DNA from: a virus
IMG/VR virus record: IMGVR_UViG_3300017752_002101
Location: 1 to 26,260 of that record
Length of the DNA: 26,260 bases
Direction: 5' to 3' (one strand)
Each line of letters begins with the position of its first letter. Within the stretch, counting starts at the first letter, position 1. The notes under the pieces were generated by a model that made no database searches, had not been told where the DNA came from, and was given only the letters and a program-made list of their open reading frames with translations. The position numbers were made by a program, and so were the translations under genes. This document shows, in pieces, positions 2,261 to 21,020 of the stretch.

Positions 2261-3537
2261 AATATTTTTACCTCATAGTCTTGCTTTATATAATAACCCA
2301 TTCTAGCATTAGCTTGACGAGTAGCTGTTTTTCCTTTTAAATGTATATCAACCACTACTGGTTGTCTCTTTCCTTCTTTTTCTCTTATTACTCTACCTAT
2401 TAACTGTGTAAGAAGTGGCTCATTGTTAACAGGTGTACCAAGTACTAAACAACTTAAATCATTTAGTGATATTCCTTCTGAAAAAATAGATTGTGTTCCA
2501 AATAAAATATTCTTATCTTTTCCTATTAGTTTCATAGTATCTTCTCTTTCTTGGAAGTCCATGTCCCCTGTAATTGACACTGCATTATCGCCCACTAATC
2601 TAGCACATGCTTTTAGAAAAGCAACTCTATCAGATACAACTAATACTTTATGTCCTAATGCAGCATATTTTGCAGCTATCATTGCTACACTATGCACATA
2701 TTCTTCGTTATATGCCAGATGATTTATACGTTCTGCCCAAGGCGTAAACGAACCATCTAAAAATCTTATGTCTGACTTTACAACATGTATCTCTGGTATA
2801 AGATAATTTTCTTTAGGCGGTTTAAAAACATTATGCCCAAAGTAATCTCTAAAAACTACATGACGCCCGTCTTTTCTTTCTAGTGTCCCTGTCAAGCCTA
2901 TCTTATATCTTGTAGGCATCTCGTCTACTATTCGTGTAAAAGTAGGACTACTGACGTGGTGCATTTCATCTAAAATCAATGTTCCAAATTCTTGTTTTAT
3001 ATCGTCCATTTTTCGGTATAAACTCTGTATATTCCCGATAACTATAGGAGCGTTAATCTTAAAGTCTCCACTACCTATTCTGCCTGGTTCAATTCCAAAG
3101 CATTTTCGTACTTCTTTTTCCCACTGATTTCTTAGATTGGTAGTGTGCGTAACAACAAGTGTTTTTTGACCAAGCTTTGCAGCTATAGCTAAACCTGTAA
3201 ATGTCTTACCCCAACTTACCCACGCGTTCACTATAGCATTGTCATCAATCTCATCATGTACTTTCTTTTGGCTTGGTCGTAAATCAAACTTAAAGTCTGC
3301 ATGTTCTATCGGCGACTTAGTTCTCTTATCGATTATTTCGTAATCATCTGGGATTAAATCCATTCTTCCAATAGGTATAGAAATCAAACCCTCTTTTATA
3401 AAACGAATTGTTTTAAATACTAAAGGTGGGTCAGAAGGTATACGAGGAGCAATAGTATAGGTAAGTTCCTTCTCTATAGAATTATGTAACTCTTTAGTTA
3501 CACTCATGTATATTCTGTTACTTAGGACTGCTTTCAT
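2257..3537 (-). CDS. SF2 DNA helicase, UvsW/XPB-like
   Basis: A 426-residue superfamily 2 ATPase. RPSQ at 87-90 is the Q-motif region, motif I is AWVSWGKTFTGLA around Lys111, motif II is DEMHH at 190-194, motif III is LTGT at 215-218, and motif VI is QLIGRVIRE near the C-terminus. This order, plus the short accessory N-terminus, fits phage UvsW and XPB-type helicases, which remodel stalled forks and recombination intermediates. The Walker A is unusual: the Gly normally two before Lys-Thr is part of SWGKT, with Trp where most members have a small residue. It overlaps the preceding cytidylyltransferase gene by 20 bases and is coupled by ATGA to the glycosyltransferase after it. Confidence 0.88.
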   Translation of the reverse strand: MKAVLSNRIYMSVTKELHNSIEKELTYTIAPRIPSDPPLVFKTIRFIKEGLISIPIGRMDLIPDDYEIIDKRTKSPIEHADFKFDLRPSQKKVHDEIDDNAIVNAWVSWGKTFTGLAIAAKLGQKTLVVTHTTNLRNQWEKEVRKCFGIEPGRIGSGDFKINAPIVIGNIQSLYRKMDDIKQEFGTLILDEMHHVSSPTFTRIVDEMPTRYKIGLTGTLERKDGRHVVFRDYFGHNVFKPPKENYLIPEIHVVKSDIRFLDGSFTPWAERINHLAYNEEYVHSVAMIAAKYAALGHKVLVVSDRVAFLKACARLVGDNAVSITGDMDFQEREDTMKLIGKDKNILFGTQSIFSEGISLNDLSCLVLGTPVNNEPLLTQLIGRVIREKEGKRQPVVVDIHLKGKTATRQANARMGYYIKQDYEVKIL

Positions 3538-3934
3538 TTATCTTATTTCTTAAATTAGTACTAGAAAAAGAATGAGCTCTACTAGTGTAGAAAATCTCAT
3601 GTAATCCTTTACCAGTAAAATGTTTATCCGTCCAATCCTCTCCTACAAATCGAAGATGTATTGGTGTTGCTTCTAGCAAATCTAACAGACTTTGTTCTGT
3701 ATCATAGGGAACAATTTCGTCAATGTACTTTACTGCTCTTAGTTGTATATATCTTTCAAACACTGACTGTACTGGTTGATTTTTTTCTTGTCTATCAATA
3801 CTCGGGTCTGTCTGTAATCCTACTATCAAATGGTCGCAGTTATCCTTTGCTTCTTTTAGCATTACTATGTGACCTGCATGTAGCAAATCAAATGCTCCAC
3901 AAGTAAATCCTATTGTTTTGTCCATTGTTCCCAT
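3518..3934 (-). CDS. Cytidylyltransferase-like nucleotidyltransferase
   Basis: A 138-residue member of the HxGH nucleotidyltransferase family, closest in look to glycerol-3-phosphate cytidylyltransferase (TagD) and the C-terminal domain of RfaE/HldE. GAFDLLHAGH at 13-22 is the catalytic HxGH motif. The late motif SFSSTNLRNKI corresponds to the (I/F)S(S/T)T.(I/L)R signature. These enzymes activate a sugar or alcohol phosphate as a CDP or ADP derivative. The start is ambiguous between codon 1 (3934) and Met4 (3925); both overlap the end of the amidotransferase gene, and Met4 has GGGA only three bases away. Beside glycosyltransferase and amidotransferase genes it probably belongs to a sugar-modification route. 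Confidence 0.82.
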   Translation of the reverse strand: MGTMDKTIGFTCGAFDLLHAGHIVMLKEAKDNCDHLIVGLQTDPSIDRQEKNQPVQSVFERYIQLRAVKYIDEIVPYDTEQSLLDLLEATPIHLRFVGEDWTDKHFTGKGLHEIFYTSRAHSFSSTNLRNKINESSPK

Positions 3935-6596: not shown

Positions 6597-8844
6597 ATAA
6601 CTTTTCAAACTTACCTAGTGAATAGTCATCAGCAACGTCAAAGTCACATCCAACTGGAGCGCCTGGGATTGATAATCCTCTATCTTTTTGTATAAACTCT
6701 TGAAGCTTTTCTGAATAATGTTCTATCTCATCTTCAGGAACTTCTGCTAGTACGGAATCGTGAACAAGTGCAAATATTTTAGACTTCATGCCTGTCTTTT
6801 CTATGTATCTTTGCATATCTATACCGCCCATAAGGTTGATATCAGATGCAACTGATTGCACTAAGAAATTAATTCCACTACGCACTTCGTGTGAGGCGAT
6901 TCCCTTGTCTTGTGAAAACACATCAGGTAATCTTCTCTTTCTGCCAAATCTACTATATACAAATCCATTCGCTTGTATAAACTTTTTCTGATAGTCTAGC
7001 CACTCACGAAGTTTAGGGAAAGCCTCAAAATAGTCTTTGATAGTATTCGCTGCGTCTTGCATACTGAAATACTCTCCACTATCTTTTGTTACTTGTTCAC
7101 TAATCTTTTTCGGTCCTGCTCCGTACATGATGCCAAAGGTAACAGCTTTTGCTTGTTGTCTTTGCGCACCAAAGTTTGCTGCTATGTCGTCAACATCCCC
7201 TGGCAGTCTAAATACTTGTTTCGCAATCGTACTATGAAAATTACCGCCAGACTTAAATACATTCATAAGTCCTTTGTCATCTGCAAGTACAGCCGCACAG
7301 TATACCTCTGCTGTTGTTAAGTCCATTGCAACTATTTTGTTTCCAGCTTTTGCTTTGATACAACCTTTTACTGTTGGATTGTCTCTTGGAAGCTGTTGCA
7401 TATTTAGTTTACCACTACTACTCAATCTACCACTGGTTGTACCGTGAAGGTTAAAACCTGTGCGAAGTCTTCCATCCATGTCTAGATTAGGTATAATTTT
7501 ATCAAGATATGTAGTCTTGATTTTTACTTTCTGTCTGACTTCTAATATATGCTTTGGTACTTCGTGTTCTTCTGCAAGATTGCCAAGTACTTCGGCATCA
7601 GTTGACAGCGCACCCGTTGCAGTTTTCTTATCAGACTTAAGTCCTATATAATCAAAAAGCAAAGCTCTTAGTTGTAGAGTTGAGTTAGGGTTAAATGCAC
7701 CCTTGTCTGCAATAAATTGTTTGACTTCAGGAAACTGATACAAAGCTTTTACTGCTGTATCAATATCTTCGCCCATTCTTTTAGCACCAAATTCTAAGCG
7801 CACAGCATCAAAAGGAACTCCGTTGTTTTCAATACACTTCAAGAATCTACAGCCTTCTACTAGTATATGTTTATATACTCCATAGAGTTTATCATTTGTT
7901 TTAAGAGCTTTCTCAAACTTCTCAAATAACATAAATGTTACTATAGCATCCATTGCCGCGTAGTTTCGCATAACATCAAATGGAACCATACTATAATCAA
8001 AAGAATCTTTGAGTATACCTGTTCTCTTTTTGAAGTCAGCTATCCAATTAGAAAGTTCTGCTTCGTAATCTCCATATGGAGTGTGCTTGATTGCTAGTGT
8101 CTTAAGCCCATGTGTTCCTGGTCTTTCATCAAACATATAGTGCATTAGCATAGTATCTTCAAAATGAGGAAACTCAAAGTTGAAGTGATATTCAAACCAT
8201 TGTAAATCAAACTTAGCGTTATGAAATACAACTCGTTTCTTGTTAAATATCTCTTGCATTAGTCTTTCAGATTCTTCGTCCATGCACTCACAATCGGCAT
8301 AGATACCATGCTCATTTTCATAGGACATCGAGAAACCTAGCATATAGCCATCACGGCAGTACAATGCTGAAGTCTCTGAGTCAAGCGCTATGAAGTCGCC
8401 TTCGTGGTCTAACGCATCTTGCAGCCACGCATTTAGTTGTTCTGTGTCTTGTATGCCGTAGCACTTATCTTTCGGTATGGTCATTTGTTTGAGTTTTCCA
8501 CTCACATATCCCGTTATACTCTCAACAGCTTCCTCGAATGACTTCTTTGCTTCTGGTCGAAACTTTATCATTGCAGGATTGATTATTGCTAAAAATTTAT
8601 CATCGCAAACTTTTCCATTGTACTCAGTTATGGATGTCTTTCTCGTATACATTTTGAAAGGCTCTGAACCCACAACTATGAGCCATTCGTACGCATCAGT
8701 ATCGATTTCGATATCAACATCTTTTTTCAAAATTTTCTTTTTACTAGAATCTGAACACAGGGCAAACCTGTCATATTCAAAATCAAAGTATTTATTCCAG
8801 TTTGTACTGGACATTGTTGTTTCTATAAGTGCTACGTTTGCCAT
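6586..8844 (-). CDS. Family A DNA polymerase with 3'-5' exonuclease
   Basis: The 752-residue replicative polymerase. The proofreading domain is intact: Exo I LDSETS (Asp155, Glu157), Exo II FHNAKFD (Asp213) and Exo III YAAMD (Tyr295, Asp299). The polymerase domain has SGRLSSSGKLNMQQLPR near 471, motif A MDLTTAEVY with Asp508 and Glu513, motif B RQQAKAVTFGIMYG with Arg562, Lys566, Phe570 and Tyr574, and motif C LVHDS with Asp696. Phe570 occupies the E. coli Phe762 position. Motif C ends in Ser rather than the Glu of Pol I, a common phage variant. There is no 5' nuclease domain. The start overlaps the stop of the helicase-like gene before it as TAATG. Confidence 0.97.
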   Translation of the reverse strand: MANVALIETTMSSTNWNKYFDFEYDRFALCSDSSKKKILKKDVDIEIDTDAYEWLIVVGSEPFKMYTRKTSITEYNGKVCDDKFLAIINPAMIKFRPEAKKSFEEAVESITGYVSGKLKQMTIPKDKCYGIQDTEQLNAWLQDALDHEGDFIALDSETSALYCRDGYMLGFSMSYENEHGIYADCECMDEESERLMQEIFNKKRVVFHNAKFDLQWFEYHFNFEFPHFEDTMLMHYMFDERPGTHGLKTLAIKHTPYGDYEAELSNWIADFKKRTGILKDSFDYSMVPFDVMRNYAAMDAIVTFMLFEKFEKALKTNDKLYGVYKHILVEGCRFLKCIENNGVPFDAVRLEFGAKRMGEDIDTAVKALYQFPEVKQFIADKGAFNPNSTLQLRALLFDYIGLKSDKKTATGALSTDAEVLGNLAEEHEVPKHILEVRQKVKIKTTYLDKIIPNLDMDGRLRTGFNLHGTTSGRLSSSGKLNMQQLPRDNPTVKGCIKAKAGNKIVAMDLTTAEVYCAAVLADDKGLMNVFKSGGNFHSTIAKQVFRLPGDVDDIAANFGAQRQQAKAVTFGIMYGAGPKKISEQVTKDSGEYFSMQDAANTIKDYFEAFPKLREWLDYQKKFIQANGFVYSRFGRKRRLPDVFSQDKGIASHEVRSGINFLVQSVASDINLMGGIDMQRYIEKTGMKSKIFALVHDSVLAEVPEDEIEHYSEKLQEFIQKDRGLSIPGAPVGCDFDVADDYSLGKFEKLYAN

Positions 8845-10460
8845 TATCTAGTTACTCCATTTTCTACGTTCCACTGCCAATATGTTCCGTCCATATTATG
8901 TAGTGCAAAAGGTTTTTTAGTTGTATAGTATTCATGTTCTTGTTTAACTACTTTATAATTTCTACCATCAAACAATATAGCCAGTTCTCTATGTGACTGT
9001 TGTCCTGTATTTTGATTTGGTCTGAGTAATTGCATTCTCTTTTTGGTATCTTTAGTTACATTAAGTACTGTATTAACTTTATAAGTTTCTCTAAACCATC
9101 CAGCTAAGCGTGTATTAGTTAACAAATCTGTACTACTAATATCAATTTCATCAGGAATTACTCCTTCGTCCATTTCTGTTATTGTGTTAAACGGATTAGA
9201 AGTTATACTATATGATTGAGCATAAGTATTTGCATATCCATTTGTATGTTTAATTAAATTAATATTAACATTACCTATACGCGACCATGCTCTTTCTCTA
9301 GCTGCAGCAGTTCTTACATCTTCCTGTATACTCCTTACTCTTGAGTATAAATCTACTGATTCATAAAGATAATCTAATGTCTCAGGAGTAGTGTATAGTT
9401 GCGGAATATGGCCAATAGGATATCCAGAATTCCTAGCTACTCTTTGCAATTTTGTTTCATGGGTTGCTTTAGGAGAACAATGAAATAGACTTCTAAGTCT
9501 ATTAAAACGTCCTTTCCTTGCTCTAAATGTATTTGTTCTATCTGATAAAAAGTAGGCTACTATAAATACTTTCTTAATACCAAGCTCTTCTGCTAACTCA
9601 TATCCTAAAAATGGATTCCAAGTTTGTGATTTAGTACCATAACCTTTTCCATCCACGTAGCATCCGTAACTAGCTTTATCTGAATTCATAATTATTACAA
9701 TATGTGATTGATTACAATTATACATAATATTTTTTGCTATTATAGCATGGTCTTTTTTATTTTTACTTACCTGTATAAGTGTAGCACCTTCGAAATCATC
9801 TTGTATAAAATCTAGTACTCTTTGGGTAGGTTCTAACCCAGAAAAACTAGCCATGTCTTCTTCTGTGAAACTATCGTCTGCATTTTCTACTATTGTTTCT
9901 ACACCTACGTAAGTGTCCCCAACTGGGGCGTCTACTATTTCGTCAAAGTCAGTCTCTGAAAGATGCTCTGCAAAAGGAGTTGCTGTAATATTACGTACTA
10001 CTTCTACACTTGGCATTTCTATAAGACTTTGAGCAAGCCTTTGTTTCTGCACTGGTTTACCTTTCTTAACAGTGTGGTCTAGTGCTAGAGTATCATCCTC
10101 ATCTATACTTATATTGAATCTATACTCACTTCCATATTTGGTGTTGTAAGCAGTGATTATTTTTTTAAGTTCTTCCATACTAGAATGGTGTGCTATGAGA
10201 GATAAAACATACTTCCTCTTAGAATCTAATCCCTTTCTAGTTAGTCTCAAATGAAATCTTTTCAAGGATTCTAGTCCTGAAAATAACTCTACATCATATT
10301 TTTTTATCTTATCATTTGTAGAGTCCATAGAATCATTTGTGCTATAGTGTATAAACACTTCTATGGTTTTTGGTTCTTGATTTTCTAGTGCTGTTCTGAC
10401 TGTATACTCAGTTTTACCTGATTGCATAGCACCATTAATCATTATTCTTTTCTTTGACAT
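8844..10460 (-). CDS. SF2-type helicase/ATPase, Z1-like
   Basis: A 538-residue ATPase between primase and polymerase. Visible motifs in order are Walker A GAMQSGKT (10-17), a motif II-like SIDEDD (118-123), motif III TATP (159-162), a VFIVAYFLSDRTNTF segment (298-312) and motif VI ETKLQRVARNSGY (335-347). The last two resemble the segments of Z1-domain and related viral SF2 proteins. The final 180 residues have no motif I know. It is not a DnaB or UvsW homologue, both of which are encoded separately here, so its role in replication is unclear. The start has AGGAG seven bases upstream, next to a short GCC-GAAA-GGC hairpin. The stop overlaps the polymerase start. Confidence 0.75.
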   Translation of the reverse strand: MSKKRIMINGAMQSGKTEYTVRTALENQEPKTIEVFIHYSTNDSMDSTNDKIKKYDVELFSGLESLKRFHLRLTRKGLDSKRKYVLSLIAHHSSMEELKKIITAYNTKYGSEYRFNISIDEDDTLALDHTVKKGKPVQKQRLAQSLIEMPSVEVVRNITATPFAEHLSETDFDEIVDAPVGDTYVGVETIVENADDSFTEEDMASFSGLEPTQRVLDFIQDDFEGATLIQVSKNKKDHAIIAKNIMYNCNQSHIVIIMNSDKASYGCYVDGKGYGTKSQTWNPFLGYELAEELGIKKVFIVAYFLSDRTNTFRARKGRFNRLRSLFHCSPKATHETKLQRVARNSGYPIGHIPQLYTTPETLDYLYESVDLYSRVRSIQEDVRTAAARERAWSRIGNVNINLIKHTNGYANTYAQSYSITSNPFNTITEMDEGVIPDEIDISSTDLLTNTRLAGWFRETYKVNTVLNVTKDTKKRMQLLRPNQNTGQQSHRELAILFDGRNYKVVKQEHEYYTTKKPFALHNMDGTYWQWNVENGVTR

Positions 10461-11384: not shown

Positions 11385-12008
11385 CTAAATTCTTGTTACC
11401 CACGATTTATCATCGAATGTTTGAATCATTTTTCCTCTAAACTTTTTATTTACTGCATTTACTACTTCGGGCCAACACTCTGGATTATAGTCATGACCTG
11501 CAATGTAACCACCTTTCTTAATTTTTGGTAAGAATAAATCTATATCTCGTTCTACAGATGCACCAGTGTGGTCGCCATCAATGTACACAAAATCAAACAT
11601 ATTATCTTTGAAGTAGTCTACACAATCAAAAGAGTAGTTTCTCCAGAAATCTATGAAATCCCAGTATCTACAATTTACTTTTGCTTCCATAAGTACTTGA
11701 TATCCTTGTGGAAAATCATAAGGGTCTATTGTGTGTATCTGTTTAAACATTCCACTAGCGGCAAACATTGATGTCGACTCACCAGCATATGTTCCTATCT
11801 CTATCATCGCAGCATTTTTAGGTAAGTCCATACTTGTCATCAGTGCTACTAGTCCAAACCATTCTCTGTTAGGGTGTACATCCCACTGGTACGGAGGATT
11901 AAATCTCATACTTCCCCACTCGTACTGAGAGCCTGGAGTTAAATAGTTTTCTTTCTTATTCTTATTATTATAAAGTATCGTCTTTGGCTTCTTTATGTTT
12001 CCATCCAT
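11385..12008 (-). CDS. Class I SAM-dependent methyltransferase
   Basis: A 207-residue protein of the Methyltransf_24 type. Motif I is MIEIGTYAGES around Glu70, the ribose-binding acidic strand is IHTIDPYD (91-98), and FDFVYIDGDHTGASVE (138-153) followed by KKGGYIAGHDY is the signature pair of this family. Members methylate sugars or small molecules more often than DNA; no DPPY-type DNA methylase motif is present. A GGAG lies nine bases before the chosen start, which overlaps the ParB-like gene by 41 bases. It is the last gene before promoter P2 and may act with the glycan or nucleotide modification enzymes nearby. Confidence 0.82.
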   Translation of the reverse strand: MDGNIKKPKTILYNNKNKKENYLTPGSQYEWGSMRFNPPYQWDVHPNREWFGLVALMTSMDLPKNAAMIEIGTYAGESTSMFAASGMFKQIHTIDPYDFPQGYQVLMEAKVNCRYWDFIDFWRNYSFDCVDYFKDNMFDFVYIDGDHTGASVERDIDLFLPKIKKGGYIAGHDYNPECWPEVVNAVNKKFRGKMIQTFDDKSWVTRI

Positions 12009-12471
12009 CTAACTCATCTCCTATCTTTTCAAATACTCTGTAATCTGTTCCCATAGAGTCTACACCATTTTCTTCATAGTATCGTGATTTCCATACTAAC
12101 TCTGCCATTTGAAACCATATTGCTACTATTCTTAGGCGTTCTTGTTCGTCTCCCCATAAATTAAATAATAGCCACCATTCTGCATCAAATCGACATACTC
12201 GTATTTCTTGCCCATGTAAGGCAGGGAGTTCCTGAAGACATCTCATCCTCTGACTCCCTGCTATGGGGTACCAGTTTGGCATACAGAGTATGGGAGATTT
12301 TACTCCGTCTTTTGCCAAACTTTCCCTTAACTTTTCATTTAGTGGAACATTCTGTATGTTCTCTTTTATTTTTTCTTGCTCTAGTAACCATCCTACTGTT
12401 CTCACATACCACGTATGGGGTGCTAATGGTACTAGCTCTGCTGTTTCTCTACTGACTCTATCATACGCCAT
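11968..12471 (-). CDS. ParB/sulfiredoxin-like protein
   Basis: A 167-residue protein. The segment LNEKLRESLAKDGVKSPILC followed by WYPIAGSQRMRCLQEL (67-82) has the ParB/Srx layout: a helix, a strand ending in the pocket, then a GxxR phosphate-binding loop (GSQR, 72-75) and a helix. ParB-fold proteins include CTP-dependent clamps, nucleases, kinases and DNA-modification enzymes. No HTH domain follows, so this is not a partition ParB. The C-terminal half is Trp-rich and unassigned. The start has GGGAG seven bases upstream and overlaps the stop of the 57-residue gene. A second protein of similar look lies just upstream. Confidence 0.62.
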   Translation of the reverse strand: MAYDRVSRETAELVPLAPHTWYVRTVGWLLEQEKIKENIQNVPLNEKLRESLAKDGVKSPILCMPNWYPIAGSQRMRCLQELPALHGQEIRVCRFDAEWWLLFNLWGDEQERLRIVAIWFQMAELVWKSRYYEENGVDSMGTDYRVFEKIGDELDGWKHKEAKDDTL

Positions 12472-12634
12472 CGTTCATCTCCCTATATCTTTGATTCCAT
12501 TCATCTTCATAAATTAATCTAAATTCTTCTAGTGTAGGAAAAGGTATCTCTATTCCTTGTCTATTTGTTCCTATTAATTTTTGCAGGTACGTTGTGTACG
12601 CTACTTTAAGTTGTTTTTCTGTGTACAAAAGCAT
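12461..12634 (-). CDS. Small 57-residue protein between the ParB-like genes
   Basis: This frame is short but convincing. The start ATG at 12632-12634 has AGGA nine bases upstream, and the TGA at 12461-12463 overlaps the start of the next gene. It fills what would otherwise be a 134-base gap. The protein begins MLLYTEKQLKVAY, has GIEIPFPTLEEFRLIYEDEW in the middle and ends NDGV. It is helical and acidic, with no membrane segment. I recall similar small LYTExQLxxAY...FPxxExFRxIYE proteins in marine phages, but cannot name a function. It overlaps the previous gene by 29 bases. Confidence 0.75.
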   Translation of the reverse strand: MLLYTEKQLKVAYTTYLQKLIGTNRQGIEIPFPTLEEFRLIYEDEWNQRYREMNDGV

Positions 12635-13274
12635 TGTTTATTTTCCTGTTAAAATAATATTTTAGTGTTAATTCATATATTCCTGCCACATCTTTTACAT
12701 TCCAATGGTCTTGTGCATTTCCTACTGCACCAATGTACTTATTGTTATGCCATATATGAAAACCTGTTTTAGAGGATACTTCTTTCCATTCTTTGCTGTT
12801 ATTTGCATTTCTTAATCTTGGTAGTATTCTATCCTCACTGAATACTATCTCATATAATCTGTTGTCTGTTCTGTGTTGTGCTGTTAAAGCTATATCTCTA
12901 TTCCCGCTGGGGTCTAGTTTCAATTTAGTAATCCCTGGAAATACTTTGCCAAGTCTTCTATAGTTTTTTATATCATAACTAATTACCCAAGCTGTCATAT
13001 CAAAGTTTAGCACTTTGTTTAACATTAGTCTATTCAATCCTGGGTGTATAGAATACTCTTTCTTTTCATCACTATACCACACTATAACTGGATTAACAAA
13101 ATTATCCTGTAATACATCTTTTACAAAAGCGTACAGTCTTATGTCTAGTCTATTCTGCTGTCGCTTCCACCAACCTTCTACATTATGTAAGTCTACAAAA
13201 TTTATAGTCTTAAATAAATCTTTAGTTGATATCTCTCCAATACATATTCTTTGTTGTAAAGGATTATAAATCAT
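12606..13274 (-). CDS. Possible second ParB/sulfiredoxin-like protein
   Basis: A 222-residue protein of uncertain family. Residues 20-95 follow a ParB-like plan: LFKTINFVDLH, a helix LYAFVKDVLQDNFVNPVIVWY, then EYSIHPGLNRLMLNKVL, where HPGLNR (77-82) sits in the place of the GxxR loop. The C-terminal 120 residues (including SKTGFHIWHNNKYIG) are unassigned, with no HTH domain. The start overlaps the end of the DnaB gene by 11 bases; its ribosome site GGAG lies within GGAG-AAAG-CTCC, which could fold into a four-pair stem. Together with the next ParB-like gene and a methyltransferase it forms a compact set between the replicative helicase and primase. Confidence 0.6.
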   Translation of the reverse strand: MIYNPLQQRICIGEISTKDLFKTINFVDLHNVEGWWKRQQNRLDIRLYAFVKDVLQDNFVNPVIVWYSDEKKEYSIHPGLNRLMLNKVLNFDMTAWVISYDIKNYRRLGKVFPGITKLKLDPSGNRDIALTAQHRTDNRLYEIVFSEDRILPRLRNANNSKEWKEVSSKTGFHIWHNNKYIGAVGNAQDHWNVKDVAGIYELTLKYYFNRKINNAFVHRKTT

Positions 13275-14625
13275 AGGAGCTTTCTCCTGTTGACATTGCT
13301 TCTTTCATTTCGGCTCTTTCGTCTGGGTCTATCTCATTCTGAGGGCCGATTCTCAAACTATCCCAGTTCATTGTAGATACAAAACCTTCTACTTTTCCAT
13401 TTCTCATCTTATCACATTTCAACTTGATTGCAGGTTCTGTATCACCCCAATGCTGAATACTGTAGGCAGCATCAACTGCGTCAAGTATACCCTTGGCAAA
13501 TCTCGCTTCTCCTTTTTCGTTTGTTTGAAATGCTGAGAGAACAAGGACATTGTTCTCCTGGGCTAAAGATTTTAACCCTTTTGATATCTCTATCTGCTCA
13601 GTCCATTCGTACTGACCGCCTCGACTCGGGGCGTTGTGGCGTCTGACTTGGTTTAGGTAATCAACTATAACTACTCCAAGGTCTGGAGTAGCGGCAACCT
13701 TTTGTCTTACTACACTAATAATTTTAGCTAGTGTAAGACTTGGGTCATAATAAATATCGACTTGAGGGATATCTTCACGCAAAGGGTTACGAGTCAACTG
13801 ATAATGAAACTTGTCAAAATCTTGATGATCGTTGTACTCCTTACGAGCTTCTTCTCCTTTCTCAAATCTTCCTGCCCACCAATCAGCAATCTTAGACCAC
13901 TCCATAGGAGATAGGTTTTTAGTGTTGATTCGTTTGATAGGAACATTACATGCCATAGCACAAATCCTCTGAAGAATTTGTCTTGGTTCCATCTCGATTG
14001 TAAAGTATAAAGCCGACTTACCTTTTTCGGTAGCTGACTGTGCAACGTTACAACAAGTGAATGATTTACCTCCACCACGACTTCCGCCAACAACGACTAA
14101 GTCTTTGGGAGAGAATTTATAGTCAAAATCATACTCTGAATTAAGACCCAGAGGAAGGTATTTTGCATAGTCTTCCTCACTATCAAATAGCTCTATAGTA
14201 TCCATACTTTCGTTATCGCTAGTAGTTTCTACTCTATCTTCTACTTGAACTACAATTTCTTGTAGCAAGTCAATGTTCTCACGAGCATCGCCGATAGCTA
14301 TTTGAGTATCCACAAAAGATTCAATTCTAGTAAGAATCTCACTTTGTGTAAATTGATTTTTTAAATAATCTAGCAAAAGAATAGCATCAACATCTGTTTC
14401 CACCGTTTCGATGGCATAGATTTTTTCTTGGAGTTCTCTTGAACGAATCTCCAGTTTTAAATCTTCAAATGTTGGCAAGTCATGATACTTGTGTACGTGT
14501 TTATCTACTATCTTCCACAGTTTTCGGTACTCACCTTCTGGAAAGTAGTGTTCTTTCAGACCATTCCATGCCTGAAAATCACCGTTTGCAAGTATTTGCT
14601 TAAGTAATGCACTTTCTAATGTCAA
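13264..14625 (-). CDS. Replicative DNA helicase, DnaB-type
   Basis: A RecA-fold hexameric helicase of the DnaB/gp41 group. Walker A is VVGGSRGGGKSF with the catalytic Lys near residue 187, Walker B is VVIVDYLNQV, and KCDKMRNGK near the C-terminus supplies the beta-finger/arginine-finger region. The N-terminal 140 residues correspond to the DnaB primase-interacting domain. The frame is open to a TTG at 14643 with no ribosome site. I prefer the TTG at 14623-14625 because GGGAG stands six bases upstream, giving 453 residues beginning MTLESALLKQ. No ATG is available near the N-terminus. It lies just after terminator T1 with no clear promoter of its own. Confidence 0.93.
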   Translation of the reverse strand: MTLESALLKQILANGDFQAWNGLKEHYFPEGEYRKLWKIVDKHVHKYHDLPTFEDLKLEIRSRELQEKIYAIETVETDVDAILLLDYLKNQFTQSEILTRIESFVDTQIAIGDARENIDLLQEIVVQVEDRVETTSDNESMDTIELFDSEEDYAKYLPLGLNSEYDFDYKFSPKDLVVVGGSRGGGKSFTCCNVAQSATEKGKSALYFTIEMEPRQILQRICAMACNVPIKRINTKNLSPMEWSKIADWWAGRFEKGEEARKEYNDHQDFDKFHYQLTRNPLREDIPQVDIYYDPSLTLAKIISVVRQKVAATPDLGVVIVDYLNQVRRHNAPSRGGQYEWTEQIEISKGLKSLAQENNVLVLSAFQTNEKGEARFAKGILDAVDAAYSIQHWGDTEPAIKLKCDKMRNGKVEGFVSTMNWDSLRIGPQNEIDPDERAEMKEAMSTGESSYDL

Positions 14626-14655
14626 TTGAATCTCCCAAGACAATTATTAAATTAT

Positions 14656-14705: not shown

Positions 14706-15422
14706 TTAGCCTATTTCTTTTTTAGCAGCTCCGTTATAGTCTGAGCACTGTAGACCTCTTCTAGTAAGCATTGTTTTCACGCCTCTTACTGTTTTGCCGA
14801 TTTCATCAGCAATTTCTTCAACAGTCATGCCGTCAATGTCGACACCTGCTAAAGGGTCAGCTTTACTTGAACCTTTGGTTTCTTTCTGCTTAGGAATAGC
14901 ATTGATTTCACCAGCTCTTAAGAGTGATAAAGCTTTTCCTCTGATTGAATTTACGCTTCTGCCCATAGCTTCTGCGATATCTTCAATAAATGCACCATCA
15001 TTTACTAATGATACAAATTGTCCTTCTTCTTCCTCGTTGTAAGACTTAACAGTCTCAACTTTAGGTGCAGGTTTAACATGTTCTGTTAACTGCATAGAAA
15101 GGATTTTACCTTGAATTGACTTAGCTGAAAAAGCTCCGCCTTCAAAGTTTGATGCAATTTCTGCATATGTGTAAGAGCCTGAGTTATCCTGCACAAATGT
15201 TGCAAGAGTTGCTTCTTGTTCATCTGAGAAAGACTTAGAAGCTGAAGCAGAAGCTAGTTCTACATCATAACCCATTTTTCTTAATTTACTAGATACACTT
15301 CTTACTGAAGTTTCTAGTTGCTCTGCTGCTGAAGCAACAGTAGTTTGTGAGATAGGGGACTCACTGCCCACAAAAGAAGTCAATTCTGAAGTTCTTTCGT
15401 CTGTCCATTTTGGTAATGCCAT
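14706..15422 (-). CDS. Tandem helix-turn-helix repeat protein
   Basis: A 238-residue protein built of about four related units of 45-55 residues. Units 1-3 begin with an acidic-aromatic motif (KWTDER, SFSDEQ, SYNEEE) and end with a recognition-helix-like segment: SVRSVSSKLRKMGYDVE, AKSIQGKILSMQL, SVNSIRGKALSLL. Unit 4 has only the second half, IADEIGKTVRGVKTMLTRRG. The pattern resembles Myb/SANT-like or sigma-like HTH arrays seen in marine phages. It should bind DNA, as a transcription regulator or a nucleoid-type protein. A GGAG lies ten bases before the start. It follows ligase B in the P3 operon and is closed by a strong terminator, as is its single-repeat relative at 21397-21864. Confidence 0.75.
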   Translation of the reverse strand: MALPKWTDERTSELTSFVGSESPISQTTVASAAEQLETSVRSVSSKLRKMGYDVELASASASKSFSDEQEATLATFVQDNSGSYTYAEIASNFEGGAFSAKSIQGKILSMQLTEHVKPAPKVETVKSYNEEEEGQFVSLVNDGAFIEDIAEAMGRSVNSIRGKALSLLRAGEINAIPKQKETKGSSKADPLAGVDIDGMTVEEIADEIGKTVRGVKTMLTRRGLQCSDYNGAAKKEIG

Positions 15423-15424
15423 TT

Positions 15425-16183
15425 TTAATTTTCTCCAATTAAATGTTTAATATTACTTATTATTATAACACCTCGGTCACGAGCTGTTTGCGTCTTTGCT
15501 GACTCTATGCCTGACTCATTTATAAGATGAGTACATTCTTTTGTCAGACTTGATTTTACTACGAATCCATACTGTTCTAATACTTTAGTAGCATGAGCTT
15601 TTGTAGGGTAGCTTCTTAACTTACCACTTATACATACAACACCAGTGACCTCTTTCTTTTTACTAATTTTATTATTCCAATTGAAGGGTAATGTGTCTTT
15701 GTATCTGTTAGGATAAAATTCTGTTTCCATGAAATTTACCAAGTTAGCTGATGCTTTTGGTCCGATACCTGCCTCAGTACAACTGTTCTCGCTAATATCT
15801 TCGATGTTTGATATTGTATCGCATAATTTTTGAGAAGCCGACCGACCAATAAGTGGTATTGAGAAAGCAGGTAGAATATCTACCAACTTGCTACTCTTAG
15901 ACTTTTGTAATTCATCATAGAGTTTCTCAGCTAATTTTTCACTGTGAATCTTATCCTGTATATCTGATACAGTAAGTTCATAAAGCTCGGGCAGGGATTC
16001 GATACCTAACTTAGAGATAGTCGAAGGCCCAAGCCCTTTTATTTTAAGAGTAGAGGAAAAAGACTCTAACTTTTTAGTCCACTGTGCAGGACACTTTGTG
16101 TTTCTGCAGAACAACTGCTCGTTTACTAACTCCAGTATGGAGTCACAACAAGGACAGTTAGTCGGTGGTGTAATCGTTGTCAT
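15425..16183 (-). CDS. ligB: NAD-dependent DNA ligase subunit B (Zn, HhH, BRCT)
   Basis: A 252-residue protein equal to the C-terminal half of a bacterial LigA. The zinc finger is CPCC at 11-14 with CRNTKCPAQ at 26-34. Helix-hairpin-helix repeats follow (FSSTLKIKGLGPSTISKLGI, later GIGPKASANLV). A BRCT domain covers about 178-252 (VTGVVCISGKLRSYPTKAHA...CTHLI...). It has no adenylation lysine and cannot ligate alone; the catalytic half is the gene at 19728-20666. Such two-gene ligases are known in T5 and other phages. The start has GAGAG about seven bases upstream and a leader of about 20 bases from promoter P3. Confidence 0.9.
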   Translation of the reverse strand: MTTITPPTNCPCCDSILELVNEQLFCRNTKCPAQWTKKLESFSSTLKIKGLGPSTISKLGIESLPELYELTVSDIQDKIHSEKLAEKLYDELQKSKSSKLVDILPAFSIPLIGRSASQKLCDTISNIEDISENSCTEAGIGPKASANLVNFMETEFYPNRYKDTLPFNWNNKISKKKEVTGVVCISGKLRSYPTKAHATKVLEQYGFVVKSSLTKECTHLINESGIESAKTQTARDRGVIIISNIKHLIGEN

Positions 16184-16210
16184 TTCTTTTCTCTCTCAAA
16201 TATATAATAT

Positions 16211-16239
16211 ATTATACAAAAAGTTTAAGCATCTGTCAA
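16211..16239 (-). promoter_or_regulatory. Promoter P3 (sigma70-like)
   Basis: On the minus strand, TTGACA (16234-16239) and TATAAT (16211-16216) are 17 bases apart and preceded by TAGTTC; the spacer has CTTAAA. The predicted start is near 16204. It drives ligB and the tandem-HTH gene up to T1. The TGA of the small upstream ORF is part of the -35 box. Confidence 0.92.
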
Positions 16240-16346
16240 GAACTATTTTTGAAATGCTCAGGAAAATTTCCACATTCAAAATTTACTACTCCTCGTAGAT
16301 GTGGGTATCTTCTACCACATTTCGATTGTCCCACTGAAACTTCCAT
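16236..16346 (-). CDS. Possible 36-residue Cys-containing protein
   Basis: A short frame in the 175-base gap between SGNH hydrolase and ligB. It starts with ATG at 16344-16346, 12 bases after the hydrolase stop, and ends at a TGA that forms part of the P3 -35 box. The peptide begins MEVSVGQSKCGRRYPHL and continues GVVNFECGNFPEHF, with two cysteines, a basic centre and no membrane segment. AAAGG lies almost against the start codon, which is poor spacing, so reinitiation after the hydrolase is the likelier way to translate it. It is supported by position and a protein-like composition only; it could be chance. Confidence 0.45.
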   Translation of the reverse strand: MEVSVGQSKCGRRYPHLRGVVNFECGNFPEHFKNSS

Positions 16347-16358
16347 GCCTTTAGTTTT

Positions 16359-17192
16359 TTACTTAAAAACGTTATCCAATTTTTTATCATATATATCCTG
16401 TATTATTTTATCGGCCATTGCTTGATGACCTTCCTCTAACGGATGGTCCATTGGACCATATGGCTTCTTCAATACTAATTTTGTTAGTTCGTAAAAGCCG
16501 TTATCTTGTAACTCAGGTATTTCTTTTAAGAAATCTTCCTTTGTCATATTGTATTGTTGTTCCCAGACTACGTTTGCACCTTCTCTTCTTTTTTCATTCA
16601 AAGAATCTAAGGCACAATCTATTTGTCCTTTACTCATGAAGTAGTATAGATGTGGTATATTCATGCTATTTAATAATCTTCTAAGATAAATCATCTGCAT
16701 ACACATTTCATGTAGATTCCACTTGATAGTTCTACAATCTTTCATGTAATGTCTCCAACCTTCATATTGATTTCTAGTCATATCAGGGTGGCAGTAAATA
16801 TCGCTTCTTTTAATCTCTAGTTTTCTTCTATCAAAAGCAAAACGAATATGTCCTACTTGTCTCCATACTCCTAAATTATTTAAGTACTCTTGTCTATTCG
16901 GTCCAGACCACAATATAATAGCTAACTTAGGTTTCTTTGGCATCATCAACATATCTGTACTGGTAACTCTTAGTATTCTATCATTACCGCCACCAATTTT
17001 TGATGACCTTCCCCATGTCTGGTCAAAGTGTTCTGCAACTAAATGTGTATAACATCCTCGGAATCTATCTTTCAATTCCATTCCTTGTGTAAAACTGTCT
17101 CCATTATAATATATGTCAGGCGCAGAACTATTATAGCGTTTGCACTCTCCTGGATTATCTACATAATTTAAATCTAATACTGATTCACTCAA
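16359..17192 (-). CDS. SGNH/GDSL-like hydrolase
   Basis: A 277-residue protein with the SGNH blocks. YYNGDSFTQG (28-37) carries the nucleophile Ser33, KIGGGNDRIL (65-74) provides a Gly and Asn70 for the oxyanion hole, and PMDHPLEEGHQAMA (247-260) stands where the catalytic Asp-His block is expected, although here Asp and His are adjacent. There is no signal peptide, so it acts in the cytoplasm or on the assembling virion. SGNH enzymes are esterases, often acting on acylated sugars. It is ATGA-coupled to the carbamoyltransferase upstream (17189-17192), which suggests both decorate or trim the same glycan. Confidence 0.75.
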   Translation of the reverse strand: MSESVLDLNYVDNPGECKRYNSSAPDIYYNGDSFTQGMELKDRFRGCYTHLVAEHFDQTWGRSSKIGGGNDRILRVTSTDMLMMPKKPKLAIILWSGPNRQEYLNNLGVWRQVGHIRFAFDRRKLEIKRSDIYCHPDMTRNQYEGWRHYMKDCRTIKWNLHEMCMQMIYLRRLLNSMNIPHLYYFMSKGQIDCALDSLNEKRREGANVVWEQQYNMTKEDFLKEIPELQDNGFYELTKLVLKKPYGPMDHPLEEGHQAMADKIIQDIYDKKLDNVFK

Positions 17193-18535
17193 AATACTTT
17201 TACTCCATAACTCTTTTCAAACTCTTTGGCATCTTCCCAAGTATTTACCATGGGTTGCCCTTTAATATTTAAACTTGTATTCAATAACATAGGTACTTTA
17301 GTAGCCTCGTAGTACGCCTCTAGTATAGGTCGTAGTATTGACTTAGAGTCTTTTCTAACCACTTGTACTCTTGCAGTTCCGTCGATGTGTGAGACACTAC
17401 TGTAGTCGTGTTTTGCCTTTGAAACATACTGCATATACTCGTTAGCATACCCTTCAAAATATTCATCTACAAACTCCTCAAGTATCGCGGGGGCAAAAGG
17501 CCTGAACTTCTGTCTGCGTTTGATATCATTGACTGTGTCTTTAATATCGTAACGGACATCGCCAAGCAGACTACGATTACCAAGCGCCCGAGGGCCAAAC
17601 TCTGCTTTTCCATTTGCTACTCCTACTACTTTATTATTAATTATTTCTTCTACTACTTTTATGGGGTTTACCTCTCTATCTATATCGTACCCTAAGTAGC
17701 AATCCTCAAACTTTATTCTTTGTTCTGTGTGTGCCAGTATACAGCCTAATGAACTCCCTGCGTCTCCAGGGCTTGGGAATATCCACATATCATCAAACAT
17801 TGCACGAATCTTACTATTTGCTACACAATTAAGTGCAACTCCACCAGCATATGCAACTTTTGGCCCATACTTACGAGCCTTTGCAAATATTTCCATGAGT
17901 TCATTTTCTAAGTGTGCTTGTGCTGACGCTGCTATATCTTCAGGTGTTTCCCAAAACCATTTACGCATAGGAATACCTTTGTGATGGTTGTTGTTAATAA
18001 AGTCTAGCATATCAATAGTTACATCTCCATATGCTGCCATGCCCATTGTAATATACTCATCTTCGTTGGGTTTTAATCCTATTCGTTTCGTAATAGCACT
18101 ATAAAATAATCCTAGTGACCATGGGTACTGACGACTCCATACTTTTTCTCCATCTACCCAAATACTTGCAGTGTCAAACTCTCCTATTGCATCTATGACA
18201 ACTGTGCTGTCAGGTACGAAAGGAGCAGTAAAATAAGCACTGGCGTAGTGACTTTTATGGTGAAGTATATCTCTGACATCGTACGCTCTGCCATTCTCTG
18301 TCGCTGCCAGTCCGTACATGTCTCGTCTGCAATTCTTGATTTCAGTATGTTCGTAAAATATTGTTTTATCATATGCGTACTCATTATATGCGTGTTCTTT
18401 TACCCACTGCGGCACCCACGCATCATTCTTTTTGCGTGTCATTCTCTCTATGTGACTTGCGAATAATATTCGTTGGTCTCTTACAACTGCAATAGCTGCA
18501 TCGTGAAAGCCTTCACTAATCCCTAAATATGTCAT
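17189..18535 (-). CDS. Carbamoyltransferase, NodU/CmcH family
   Basis: A 448-residue enzyme that would use carbamoyl phosphate and ATP to carbamoylate a hydroxyl group. The frame extends upstream to 18724, but those 63 codons overlie the nuclease gene; the family start MTYLGISEGFHDAAIAVV is at 18535, and I use it. The Kae1-like N-terminal half has the metal-binding HHKSHYASA (92-100), VVIDAIGEFD, EYITMGMAAYGD and YAGGVALNCVANSKI. The C-terminal part has GKAEFGPRALGNRSLLGD, FRPFAPAI and LNTSLNIKGQPMV, all typical. At 448 residues it is shorter than NodU or TobZ, mainly through short loops. Similar genes occur in marine phages. The start overlaps the nuclease gene by 20 bases. Confidence 0.9.
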   Translation of the reverse strand: MTYLGISEGFHDAAIAVVRDQRILFASHIERMTRKKNDAWVPQWVKEHAYNEYAYDKTIFYEHTEIKNCRRDMYGLAATENGRAYDVRDILHHKSHYASAYFTAPFVPDSTVVIDAIGEFDTASIWVDGEKVWSRQYPWSLGLFYSAITKRIGLKPNEDEYITMGMAAYGDVTIDMLDFINNNHHKGIPMRKWFWETPEDIAASAQAHLENELMEIFAKARKYGPKVAYAGGVALNCVANSKIRAMFDDMWIFPSPGDAGSSLGCILAHTEQRIKFEDCYLGYDIDREVNPIKVVEEIINNKVVGVANGKAEFGPRALGNRSLLGDVRYDIKDTVNDIKRRQKFRPFAPAILEEFVDEYFEGYANEYMQYVSKAKHDYSSVSHIDGTARVQVVRKDSKSILRPILEAYYEATKVPMLLNTSLNIKGQPMVNTWEDAKEFEKSYGVKVF

Positions 18536-18896
18536 TCTTTTTGGGAAAACTTTGTAGAATCTTTGATTCCATACTAAAGCATTCCGTATGCCCTCCAAAA
18601 TGGTGCTGTGTTTTATGTCTATCATCCTGATACATCTTGTGTAGTTTCTGTTCCCATCTCCAGCAATCGTATATCGTCCCCTGCCAAAGTCTCTGTATTC
18701 TGATGTCGTAGTTTGTAAACCCACGCCCTCTTTTTACTGCGTCTTTGAATGTTCGCCCTTTTGCGATGCCGACCTTTATTGTTTCTCGTTCCCATGTTTG
18801 CATGTTTACCAGTACTATTCCGTATAGTATGCCGTCTTTTTCTTTTTCCCATGGATGGTTATTGAAAAAGGTTTGATTATATACTCCGCCACTCAT
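18516..18896 (-). CDS. GIY-YIG-like nuclease, T5orf172 type
   Basis: A 126-residue protein with the order of a compact GIY-YIG/T5orf172 domain: GILYGIVLV as first strand, TIKVGIAKG as the second strand with the YIG-like triad, an Arg-containing helix (DAVKRGRGF), WRWEQKLHKMYQ with a candidate metal-binding Glu, and GHTECF near the end. These nucleases often act as free-standing homing endonucleases in phages. The ATG at 18896 overlaps the preceding stop as ATGA and has GGGAG as ribosome site; an in-frame GTG four codons earlier is less likely. It sits inside the cargo block between the ligase halves, consistent with a mobile history. Confidence 0.72.
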   Translation of the reverse strand: MSGGVYNQTFFNNHPWEKEKDGILYGIVLVNMQTWERETIKVGIAKGRTFKDAVKRGRGFTNYDIRIQRLWQGTIYDCWRWEQKLHKMYQDDRHKTQHHFGGHTECFSMESKILQSFPKKNDIFRD

Positions 18897-19093
18897 TTCC
18901 ACTCCCACCCTTCTTCGATTGAAGACTGACAGCCTTGGATAAAATCTCTATCTTCTTCTGAGAGAACTGACCAAAATTTACTGATAGTTAGTGTATACTC
19001 CATGCACCCGTTGGGGTCTACGATATGAACATTGTTATTCATCATGAATTCTAGTACATCTAGTTTTTTCTGTATCTTCTCTCTTAGTATCAT
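18893..19093 (-). CDS. Unknown 66-residue protein
   Basis: A small, mostly helical protein (LREKIQKKLDVLEFMMNN, then ISKFWSVLSEEDRDFIQ, then an acidic Trp-rich tail). No cysteine pair, membrane segment or known motif is evident. The start and stop are both ATGA overlaps, with the sulfotransferase before and the nuclease after, so it is firmly part of the P4 operon. I recall similar small proteins with FWSxLSExDRDY in marine phages, without a known role. Confidence 0.7.
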   Translation of the reverse strand: MILREKIQKKLDVLEFMMNNNVHIVDPNGCMEYTLTISKFWSVLSEEDRDFIQGCQSSIEEGWEWK

Positions 19094-19731
19094 ATCTTAT
19101 ACTTATACTTAGGATTAATATAGTTATCAAACATTTTTTGATTATCAACTCCTAAACCAAAGTAATCTTGTACTTTATTAGTATAGATATCTTCGTAGTA
19201 TGTCACTTCCAGTCCTAGATGATGAGCAATAAGTTTTAGCATATCACTACTTTGTTCTTCTTTCATTTTTAGTTGCTTCCATGTTTCAGTATCGGGTATT
19301 ATGGAAGGAGTATACTTATATGCTCCTCTCCACTTTCCAAAGTACTGTGCATGTAATGCACTACTAACTCTTGCATCTATATCTCGTCTATCAAGTACGA
19401 TTACTTTATCAAACTTTTGTGCAAATCTATACCAAAATACAACCTCACTAGCATTGTCTAACCAGTCCAATCCTTCACAATTATATTTAGGTTGTGGTTG
19501 ATTCCAGTAGAATCCTAAGTACTGCTGTACATTTACTATGGATTTAACTACCATGTTGTCAGGCATGTTTTGATAAGTAAAATTATTGTATGCTTCACTA
19601 CGATACTCAGGTCTTAACTTAAGTCCTCTGTTCCATGGCTCAGGAACAACATCATAATCTAGTCCTTCTCCGAGTCCTAACATAATATTTGTACTTCCTG
19701 TCCTGCCATTAGCAAGAATTAGTATTCTCAT
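19090..19731 (-). CDS. Sulfotransferase-like protein
   Basis: A 213-residue P-loop protein. The N-terminal ILANGRTGSTNIM (GRTGST at 9-14) is the PAPS 5'-phosphosulfate loop of sulfotransferases, where RxGST is usual. A later segment VIVLDRRDIDARVSSAL supplies the Arg and Ser that bind the 3'-phosphate. The family moves sulfate from PAPS to a hydroxyl, often of a sugar or lipid. It is short for the family, and has no membrane anchor. It is ATGA-coupled to ligase subunit A before it and to the small gene after it. The acceptor is unknown; carbamoyltransferase and SGNH hydrolase downstream suggest a shared glycan. Confidence 0.75.
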   Translation of the reverse strand: MRILILANGRTGSTNIMLGLGEGLDYDVVPEPWNRGLKLRPEYRSEAYNNFTYQNMPDNMVVKSIVNVQQYLGFYWNQPQPKYNCEGLDWLDNASEVVFWYRFAQKFDKVIVLDRRDIDARVSSALHAQYFGKWRGAYKYTPSIIPDTETWKQLKMKEEQSSDMLKLIAHHLGLEVTYYEDIYTNKVQDYFGLGVDNQKMFDNYINPKYKYKI

Positions 19732-20666
19732 ACTCTTCTCACTATTCTAGGTATGATTTCTCCACTACGAATAACTTCTACTCCACATCCAATCTCAAGG
19801 TCTAGTGCCTCGATATATCCAATGTTATGTAGAGTTGCTCTACTTACTGTCGCTTCTCCAATGATACAAGGCTCTAGAATCGCAACTGGCGAAACAGCAC
19901 CTGACTTCCCGACATTCCATTCAACGTCCAAGAGCCGAGTAACTACTCCAGCCTGTCTTGTTTTTAAAGCGAAACTACCTCTAGGGTGGTGTGCTGTGTA
20001 GCCTAATTTTTCAAAATATATATTAGAGTCGACTCGTACAACTTTACCGTCCTGAGGGAATTCACGATAATCACTTTGTGTGACAGTGTTAAATCCCATT
20101 TCTTTTACCATGCCCATATCGGCAGTCCACTCAGCACAAATTGCTGGTTGAATACCATAAGCTATAAATGTTAGGTTACGGGATTTAAATTCTTCTAAGT
20201 CTTTTAGATTCAAAGCACCACTTGCATAGTTTCTAGCATTTGGTATTGTTTTAGGAGCAACGATTTCTCCAGTAATCTGTTTGACACCTTTGCTCCATAT
20301 TTCATTTGGCACTAAAGACTTTATTTTATCAGTAATATCTAGCCCTGCTTTACCATCTCCACGAGTTAACGCCTGTGTTAGTACGCCTTCTATATAAGTT
20401 ATAGACACAGCTGCACCATCCATCTTGGCAGTCATTATGTGTGGTTGATTGATATCCCAATTAGGTTCTTCATCTTCGCCTACAAAGACTTTCTGAAGTG
20501 AATACATGGGGAAGGGGTGTTTAAATCTTTCCTCTGTGACATCATACCCAACTTTATTTTCAAGTTCGGTATTTTCCACGAGTCTATCGTATACTTCGTC
20601 AGGCAATATTGGATTGCCTTCTGCATACTTTTGATTACACAATTCTAGGTATTCTGTCTTGTTCAT
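19728..20666 (-). CDS. ligA: NAD-dependent DNA ligase subunit A (adenylation and OB)
   Basis: A 312-residue catalytic half of a split LigA. The NMN-binding Ia domain is short but recognisable (ILPDEVYDRL), followed by HPFPMYSLQKVF. The adenylated lysine is Lys81 in TAKMDG. Other motifs are LTRGDGKAGLDIT, ITGEIVAP, FALKT and VEWNVGKSGAVSPVA, then the OB fold with TVSRATLHN and EVIRSGEIIPRI. It ends where the zinc finger would begin; that half is ligB at 15425-16183. The ATG begins seven bases after the -10 box of P4, at the predicted transcription start, so the mRNA would be leaderless. No other in-frame start fits the family. Confidence 0.93.
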   Translation of the reverse strand: MNKTEYLELCNQKYAEGNPILPDEVYDRLVENTELENKVGYDVTEERFKHPFPMYSLQKVFVGEDEEPNWDINQPHIMTAKMDGAAVSITYIEGVLTQALTRGDGKAGLDITDKIKSLVPNEIWSKGVKQITGEIVAPKTIPNARNYASGALNLKDLEEFKSRNLTFIAYGIQPAICAEWTADMGMVKEMGFNTVTQSDYREFPQDGKVVRVDSNIYFEKLGYTAHHPRGSFALKTRQAGVVTRLLDVEWNVGKSGAVSPVAILEPCIIGEATVSRATLHNIGYIEALDLEIGCGVEVIRSGEIIPRIVRRV

Positions 20667-20672
20667 ATGAAT

Positions 20673-20701
20673 ATTATACAGAATTTTTAAGGATTTGTCA
20701 A
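20673..20701 (-). promoter_or_regulatory. Promoter P4 (sigma70-like, leaderless)
   Basis: On the minus strand, TTGACA (20696-20701) and TATAAT (20673-20678) are 17 bases apart, preceded by TAGTCC and with CTTAAAAA in the spacer. Six bases separate the -10 from the ATG of ligA, so the expected +1 falls on the A of the start codon. Confidence 0.92.
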
Positions 20702-20717
20702 GGACTATTTTTTGGTG

Positions 20718-21020
20718 CTATAGGTATATCTCGTCTAACACTTCTTTGAAATGAGTTTCTAGTACTCCTTTGACTTCTGATATAGAAAGTATCTCTACTA
20801 ATGCCTCAAACAGTCCACGACTATTATTAAAATCTAAAGGCATGGCTATGCCGTCCTTAGTAGGTTTCCATTCTTCGTCAAAGTCTTGATAATATTTTCT
20901 AATATGTAAATACTCTGTTCCACGAAAGGTATTTATCATAACGAATACTTTTTCATGTTTAGCTTCGTTATAACTTATTTCCTTTTCATAAACAGCAGGT
21001 GCTTCATGTAATTCTATCAT
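20718..21020 (-). CDS. PC4/p15-like transcriptional coactivator
   Basis: A 100-residue protein. The segment LHIRKYYQDFDEEWKPTKDGIAM (38-60) has the PC4 pattern: an (I/V)RxYY strand, an acidic turn, then W-K-P-x-K-x-G-I. The family forms dimers that bind single-stranded DNA and can affect transcription; T5-type phages also carry PC4-like proteins. The rest (LFEALVEIL, then VLETHFKEVLDEIYL) is helical. The start overlaps the previous gene by 17 bases. It ends just before the P4 -35. Expression may depend on readthrough of T2 because no promoter is seen close upstream. Confidence 0.72.
   Translation of the reverse strand: MIELHEAPAVYEKEISYNEAKHEKVFVMINTFRGTEYLHIRKYYQDFDEEWKPTKDGIAMPLDFNNSRGLFEALVEILSISEVKGVLETHFKEVLDEIYL

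Follow-up and report, generated by a model that had tools for sequence, protein, structure and literature searches.

The NAD-dependent DNA ligase of an uncultured marine relative of phage T5 is encoded by two genes that flank a block of accessory genes. The window analyzed here, a stretch of 26,260 nucleotides of viral DNA, very probably carries a standard two-subunit ligase of the T5 type, with the interval between the subunit genes used as a cargo slot in this marine lineage. The feature is real and the ligase is ordinary, and a nuclease-like gene resides in the cargo slot between its two genes. The split two-gene ligase is the known arrangement of T5-type phages, from which the window differs by this slot. 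For an essential two-subunit enzyme that flanks accessory genes, an order of events is obtained (the split, then the nuclease gene, then the cargo, then exchange). This order runs against the tempting view that the ligase was split by the cargo or by the nuclease.

The assignment of the two halves is based on several independent matches. LigA matched Pfam DNA_ligase_aden (9e-26), DNA_ligase_OB (7e-24) and PHROG 3359 (1e-101), and LigB contained a Cys4 zinc motif together with HHH_5 and BRCT matches and a match to PHROG 3498 (7e-59). On TIGR00575, the NCBIfam full-length ligase model of 652 positions, the best LigA stretch ended at position 377 and LigB spanned positions 388-648, so that the two halves join end to end. 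Residues K80, D82, G83, D212, G213 and K241 (numbered on the first row of the alignment; KxDG and later motifs) were invariant in seven phages. Furthermore, PDB entries 9hu3/9i5i are a two-chain DNA ligase with chains of 339 and 248 aa, chain A of which resembled LigA (1.3e-62) and chain B LigB (7.7e-32); a literature search for 9HU3 gave no paper. The split falls at the border of the OB and zinc domains with one gene per half, the gene order is PC4-like - LigA - LigB - D5 - DnaB and a promoter precedes each half, as in the T5-type ligase. The preliminary description, which had been made from the window alone, proposed complementary halves about 3.5 kb apart, each directly behind its own promoter; these domain matches, the tiling on TIGR00575, the measured gap of 3,544 bp and near-consensus repeats before ligA and ligB agree with it. 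Misassembly of the contig was rejected on the grounds that the arrangement was seen in 57 distinct cargo-bearing intervals. Rfam and tRNA scans of the window gave no matches. The features are listed in Table 1.

Table 1. Features of the ligase locus in the window, from high to low position
Feature	Position	Strand	Basis or remark
PC4-like regulator, left neighbour of ligA	20718..21020	-	
ligA promoter repeat (TTGACA-17-TATAAT)	20671..20709	-	
LigA, adenylation and OB half of the NAD-dependent DNA ligase	19728..20666	-	Pfam, PHROG, TIGR00575
Sulfotransferase-like gene, late patchy cargo	19090..19731	-	GRTGST and RRD....S motifs
66-aa ORF (sm66)	18893..19093	-	Conserved in ∼1/3 of spanning relatives
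Nuclease-like gene of the T5orf172 type (GIY-YIG superfamily), stand-alone; a constant of the interval	18516..18896	-	
NodU/TobZ-type O-carbamoyltransferase (CarbT)	17189..18535	-	Carbam_trans_N and Carbam_trans_C domains
SGNH-type hydrolase-like protein	16359..17192	-	G-D/C-S, G..N and HP motifs
34-aa conserved ORF (orf34), closes the cassette	16286..16390	-	Sequence MIKNWITFLSKKLKAWKFQWDNRNVVEDTHIYEE
ligB promoter repeat, at which the exchanged cassette ends on the right	16209..16247	-	
LigB, zinc, HhH and BRCT half of the NAD ligase	15425..16183	-	Cys4 motif, HHH_5, BRCT, PHROG, TIGR00575
D5-like regulator, constant right neighbour of ligB	14706..15422	-	

The closest known system is the two-gene NAD ligase of T5 itself (dnlj1/dnlj2; LigA/LigB of the Demerecviridae), which shares the split point, order, neighbours and early promoters with the window at a protein identity of ∼40%. 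In the T5 records compared (AY543070 and AY587007), dnlj1 and dnlj2 are 206 bp apart with an early promoter before each and without a nuclease or metabolic genes between them, whereas the gap here is 3.5 kb. The order is also that of Vibrio phages VspSw_1, D254 and Morian and of Erwinia phage KEY, in which 483-1384 bp separate the halves; the earlier remark that T5-like phages have the two close together is thus correct. All of these phages have the same halves and the same neighbours (PC4-like - LigA - LigB - D5 - DnaB) without the cargo of the window. A concatenated LigA and LigB query matched 1,200 phage records, and in 956 of them a single place accounted for at least 80% of the query, with two genes within ∼1.35 kb or, in more distant phages, with a fused ligase. 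The T5 ligase was already called split in a paper of 2006, with reference to Wang et al. (2005); the same paper reports that an archaeal NAD ligase cut to the LigA-equivalent domains was adenylated but gave no ligation (PMC1684257). Since T5 and these Vibrio and Erwinia phages share the halves and their order but lack both the cargo and the nuclease gene in the interval, genome comparison shows the split to be ancestral and older than the cargo, as judged from gene order. The scenario of the preliminary description, in which nuclease-carried cargo was inserted into an intact ligase gene and thereby split it, would account for complementary halves with cargo between them; however, the same split between the OB and zinc-finger domains in these phages, and also in cargo-free marine relatives, makes it almost certainly wrong.

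The history of the interval was followed in relatives of LigA and LigB gathered from IMG/VR, with all marine relatives being metagenomic contigs. In total, 77 distinct intervals were distinguished: five from named T5-like outgroups, 15 from cargo-free marine phages and 57 with a carbamoyltransferase. The gap measured 432-1245 bp in the cargo-free marine phages and 2618-5882 bp in the cargo bearers. In a tree of LigA and LigB the cargo bearers formed one clade (support 97/96) and the cargo-free marine phages lay outside it, with one of them (L154) deepest and the T5 and Vibrio phages as the outgroup. A search for carbamoyltransferases in 12 cargo-free contigs, which are fragments, found none. 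A T5orf172-type gene was present inside the interval in every marine locus showing both halves, including the cargo-free ones, and in none of the five outgroup intervals; by this distribution, the ancestor of the marine group already had it there. The TGA stop codon of the nuclease gene lies within the TTGACA of the ligB promoter in all ten cargo-free examples listed, which indicates that the nuclease gene came first and that the cassette was inserted between it and the promoter, with the promoter left intact. By tree position and gene content, the cassette of CarbT, SGNH and the 34-aa ORF is shown to have entered once at this site, and sulfotransferase, 2OG oxygenase, radical SAM and other genes were gained and lost. 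The earlier suggestion of cargo inserted at a split gene is thus retained in one respect, as the block is later than the split and the 15 cargo-free relatives and the single clade of cargo bearers mark it as later cargo, but not in the sense that the cargo caused the split or arrived with it. The combination of this cargo with an unsplit ligase was looked for and was absent from the 77 distinct intervals.

The cassette has also been replaced since its entry. Among 32 phages, divergence reaches 28% in CarbT and 56% in SGNH between pairs that are no more than 8% apart in LigB and D5. In one relative (L003) the CarbT-SGNH genes are ∼56-87% identical to those of the window between flanks of ∼86-99%, and in this relative and another (L005) a divergent CarbT-SGNH block with conserved flanks ends at the ligB promoter. 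Very different cassette alleles between near-identical flanks argue for exchange of the cassette by recombination. In two further relatives (L020 and L021), identity to the window is mostly 78-93% upstream of ∼20,100, a position inside ligA, and 99-100% downstream of it; as the relatives are all metagenomic contigs, these two single junctions could be assembly chimeras. Exchange would take place by homologous recombination in the conserved flanks, namely ligA, the nuclease gene, the ligB promoter and ligB.

The layout of transcription suggests why this interval accepts genes. A promoter repeat, AATARTNCTTGACA-N17-TATAATAT, occurs at five sites in the window with at most three mismatches (expected number 0.01), which precede the gene ending upstream at 21864, ligA, ligB, the primase gene and the gene at 945-1337. 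On the minus strand between the ligA and ligB promoters, no promoter-like site of at least 10/12 and no terminator-like site were found. The first cargo gene, the sulfotransferase-like one, is joined to ligA by an ATGA overlap, as had been noted, and the whole block overlaps in the same manner: sulfotransferase with sm66 and sm66 with the nuclease gene by 4 nt each, the nuclease gene with CarbT by ∼20 nt and CarbT with SGNH by 4 nt. SGNH also overlaps orf34, which completes an unbroken chain from ligA to orf34. In the relatives, spacing is variable at LigA-nuclease, nuclease-CarbT, DnaB-primase and PC4-LigA, and is near-constant at LigB-D5 (0-9 nt) and D5-DnaB (38-93 nt). Just downstream of the LigA-LigB, DnaB-primase and PC4-LigA intervals there is in each case a promoter repeat. 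These three variable intervals point to the slot being the tail of the ligA transcription unit, a rule based on few intervals, with the primase-polymerase gaps being poorly measurable. Such a tail would tolerate insertions: the ligA promoter would serve new genes through translational coupling, the separate promoter of ligB and of the essential D5-DnaB genes would remain intact, and LigA and LigB would still assemble in trans into one ligase. A checkable rule is suggested, in which T5-like phages accept genes at the end of a transcription unit, immediately ahead of the following early promoter.

The cargo itself is of mixed constancy. The likely start of CarbT is the ATG at 18535, as the GTG at 18724 sits in a different frame of the nuclease gene. 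Pfam and NCBIfam searches assigned neither the sulfotransferase-like nor the SGNH-like gene to a family, and both names are provisional, being derived from invariant conserved motifs. An alternative frame for the small ORF ('sm37') contains stops and was rejected, and the conserved ORF is 34 aa long. The sulfotransferase is patchy and is present in 27% of spanning relatives. A 2OG oxygenase lies between the nuclease gene and CarbT in the deepest cargo bearers and in several other relatives, and is absent from the lineage of the window. Its position directly before the carbamoyltransferase brings to mind a pathway of DNA hypermodification, in which a hydroxyl group placed on a base by the oxygenase is capped by the carbamoyltransferase, and a carbamoyltransferase from a metavirome does make 5-carbamoyloxymethylcytosine (PMC8670742). 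However, in that study the pairing of carbamoyltransferase with thymidylate synthase was specific to modified contigs (PMC8670742), and a gene of the thymidylate-synthase/hydroxymethylase family was found in none of 13 related contigs (most of them fragments; two of 104-105 kb), which makes carbamoylation of DNA unlikely. Furthermore, the oxygenases of the relatives match generic 2OG families (Oxy_3 and Oxy_5) and not TET/JBP, and in other marine phages the carbamoyltransferase sits among SGNH genes, so the hypermodification pathway is very improbable. A ∼51% identical carbamoyltransferase was found in a marine single-cell virus, and of the 82 loci of this protein and its relatives, 58 have SGNH genes within 1.5 kb and none gave a nuclease or ligase profile match. 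The carbamoyltransferase-SGNH module is thus common to T5-like and other marine phages. The O-carbamoyltransferases NodU/TobZ/GdmN and the 'Nol-like' carbamoyltransferases of marine phages likewise have both Pfam domains, and SGNH neighbours are also seen in other marine phages, whereas CarbT of the window sits in a ligase interval. Most tentatively of all the steps proposed, the cargo may decorate a small molecule or glycan, and not DNA, by O-carbamoylation, SGNH-type acylation or deacylation and sulfation.

The nuclease-like gene had been put forward in the preliminary description as the possible agent of insertion. The protein is a single domain of 126 aa in which G22, Y25, G43, R56, E82 and H86 are invariant, and its predicted structure (mean pLDDT 87) gave fold matches including viral proteins named T5orf172 (E of 3e-5). 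The match to Pfam T5orf172 was below the cut-off, a Foldseek search of the PDB gave no solved structure at E ≤ 0.001 and a profile search of PDB sequences gave chance matches only. The gene is under strong purifying selection (dN/dS 0.09). In a homing-type system the nuclease would cut the ligA-ligB intervals of co-infecting relatives, and repair would copy the nuclease gene with the adjoining cargo, making the nuclease the motor of exchange. The gene is indeed the one constant of the interval, lying between two variable cassettes, it was there before the cargo, exchanged tracts end at or near it and its putative catalytic Arg and Glu are invariant; in addition, nuclease genes have been described at the borders of genetic exchange, and T5-like phages are rich in T5orf172 genes (PMC10448857). 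However, almost all of the T5orf172 homing enzymes surveyed carry zinc fingers of the CapR/DUF723 type (PMC10448857), whereas no zinc-finger DNA-binding domain (CapR, DUF723 or DUF4397), second domain or conserved Cys pairs were found in the protein of the window. No presence/absence polymorphism was seen either: the gene is in all marine loci with both ligase halves, so that a homing enzyme would find no allele without it to invade in the marine group. Variation is also seen in the DnaB-primase interval, with no recognized nuclease family match among the genes tested there, and the occurrence of the CarbT-SGNH pair in other marine phages with neither nuclease nor ligase nearby means that the nuclease is not a necessary vehicle. 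Homing as the motor of exchange is accordingly possible but unlikely, and exchange through the conserved flanks is preferred. Less likely still is a more elaborate version, in which a domesticated T5orf172-type protein, as a site-directed nuclease, cuts the DNA of rivals near the ligB promoter and so maintains the LigA-LigB interval as a permanent site of exchange, with repair through the conserved ligase genes importing the cargo block and shuffling the ligase halves independently. The locus may be compared with the HEG islands described by Barth, Dunham and Seed (2023) (PMC10448857), which likewise have a T5orf172-family gene next to essential replication genes, where the exchanged DNA ends. 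HEG islands have zinc-finger nucleases on both sides, whereas the window has one stand-alone nuclease domain inside the slot; there the essential genes are the cargo, and here accessory cargo is swapped between constant essential genes.

Within LigA, variability is concentrated in stretches of the adenylation domain (residues 34-50, 61-77, 91-97, 117-130 and 166-202), where amino-acid differences amount to 38-49% over all pairs, in contrast to the OB domain, which is nearly constant between phages. The genes adjoining ligA are almost the same in the phages concerned, and the variability could reflect either the import of alleles or diversification against a host factor. Two relatives have a tRNA-like sequence immediately upstream of the ligA promoter: in L119 it lies at about 3400-3490, and in L135 it directly precedes position 10001.

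The helicase gene also seems to have been exchanged between phages, since DnaB differs by 22-23% from its counterparts in the relatives L045 and L072, while LigB and the adjoining D5-like regulator are only 0-5% apart. The DnaB-primase interval is a second variable slot, measuring 166-3082 nt among relatives, and has the promoter repeat at its end, as does the LigA-LigB slot.

Features of the window considered here
Feature	Position	Remarks
Cytidylyltransferase gene	3518-3934	adjoins asparagine synthase gene
538-aa ORF	8844-10460	between primase and polymerase genes
DnaB-primase interval	11385-13274	four genes
Methyltransferase gene	11385-12008	in DnaB-primase interval
DnaB	13264-14643	compared with L045 and L072
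LigA	19728-20666	

The 538-aa ORF has a homologue in none of the 45 relatives that span the region, and NCBIfam gives a weak match only. The cytidylyltransferase gene is located between LigA and the GIY-YIG-type nuclease-like gene in three relatives (L070, L076 and L012), and thus a single cargo gene occupies different slots.
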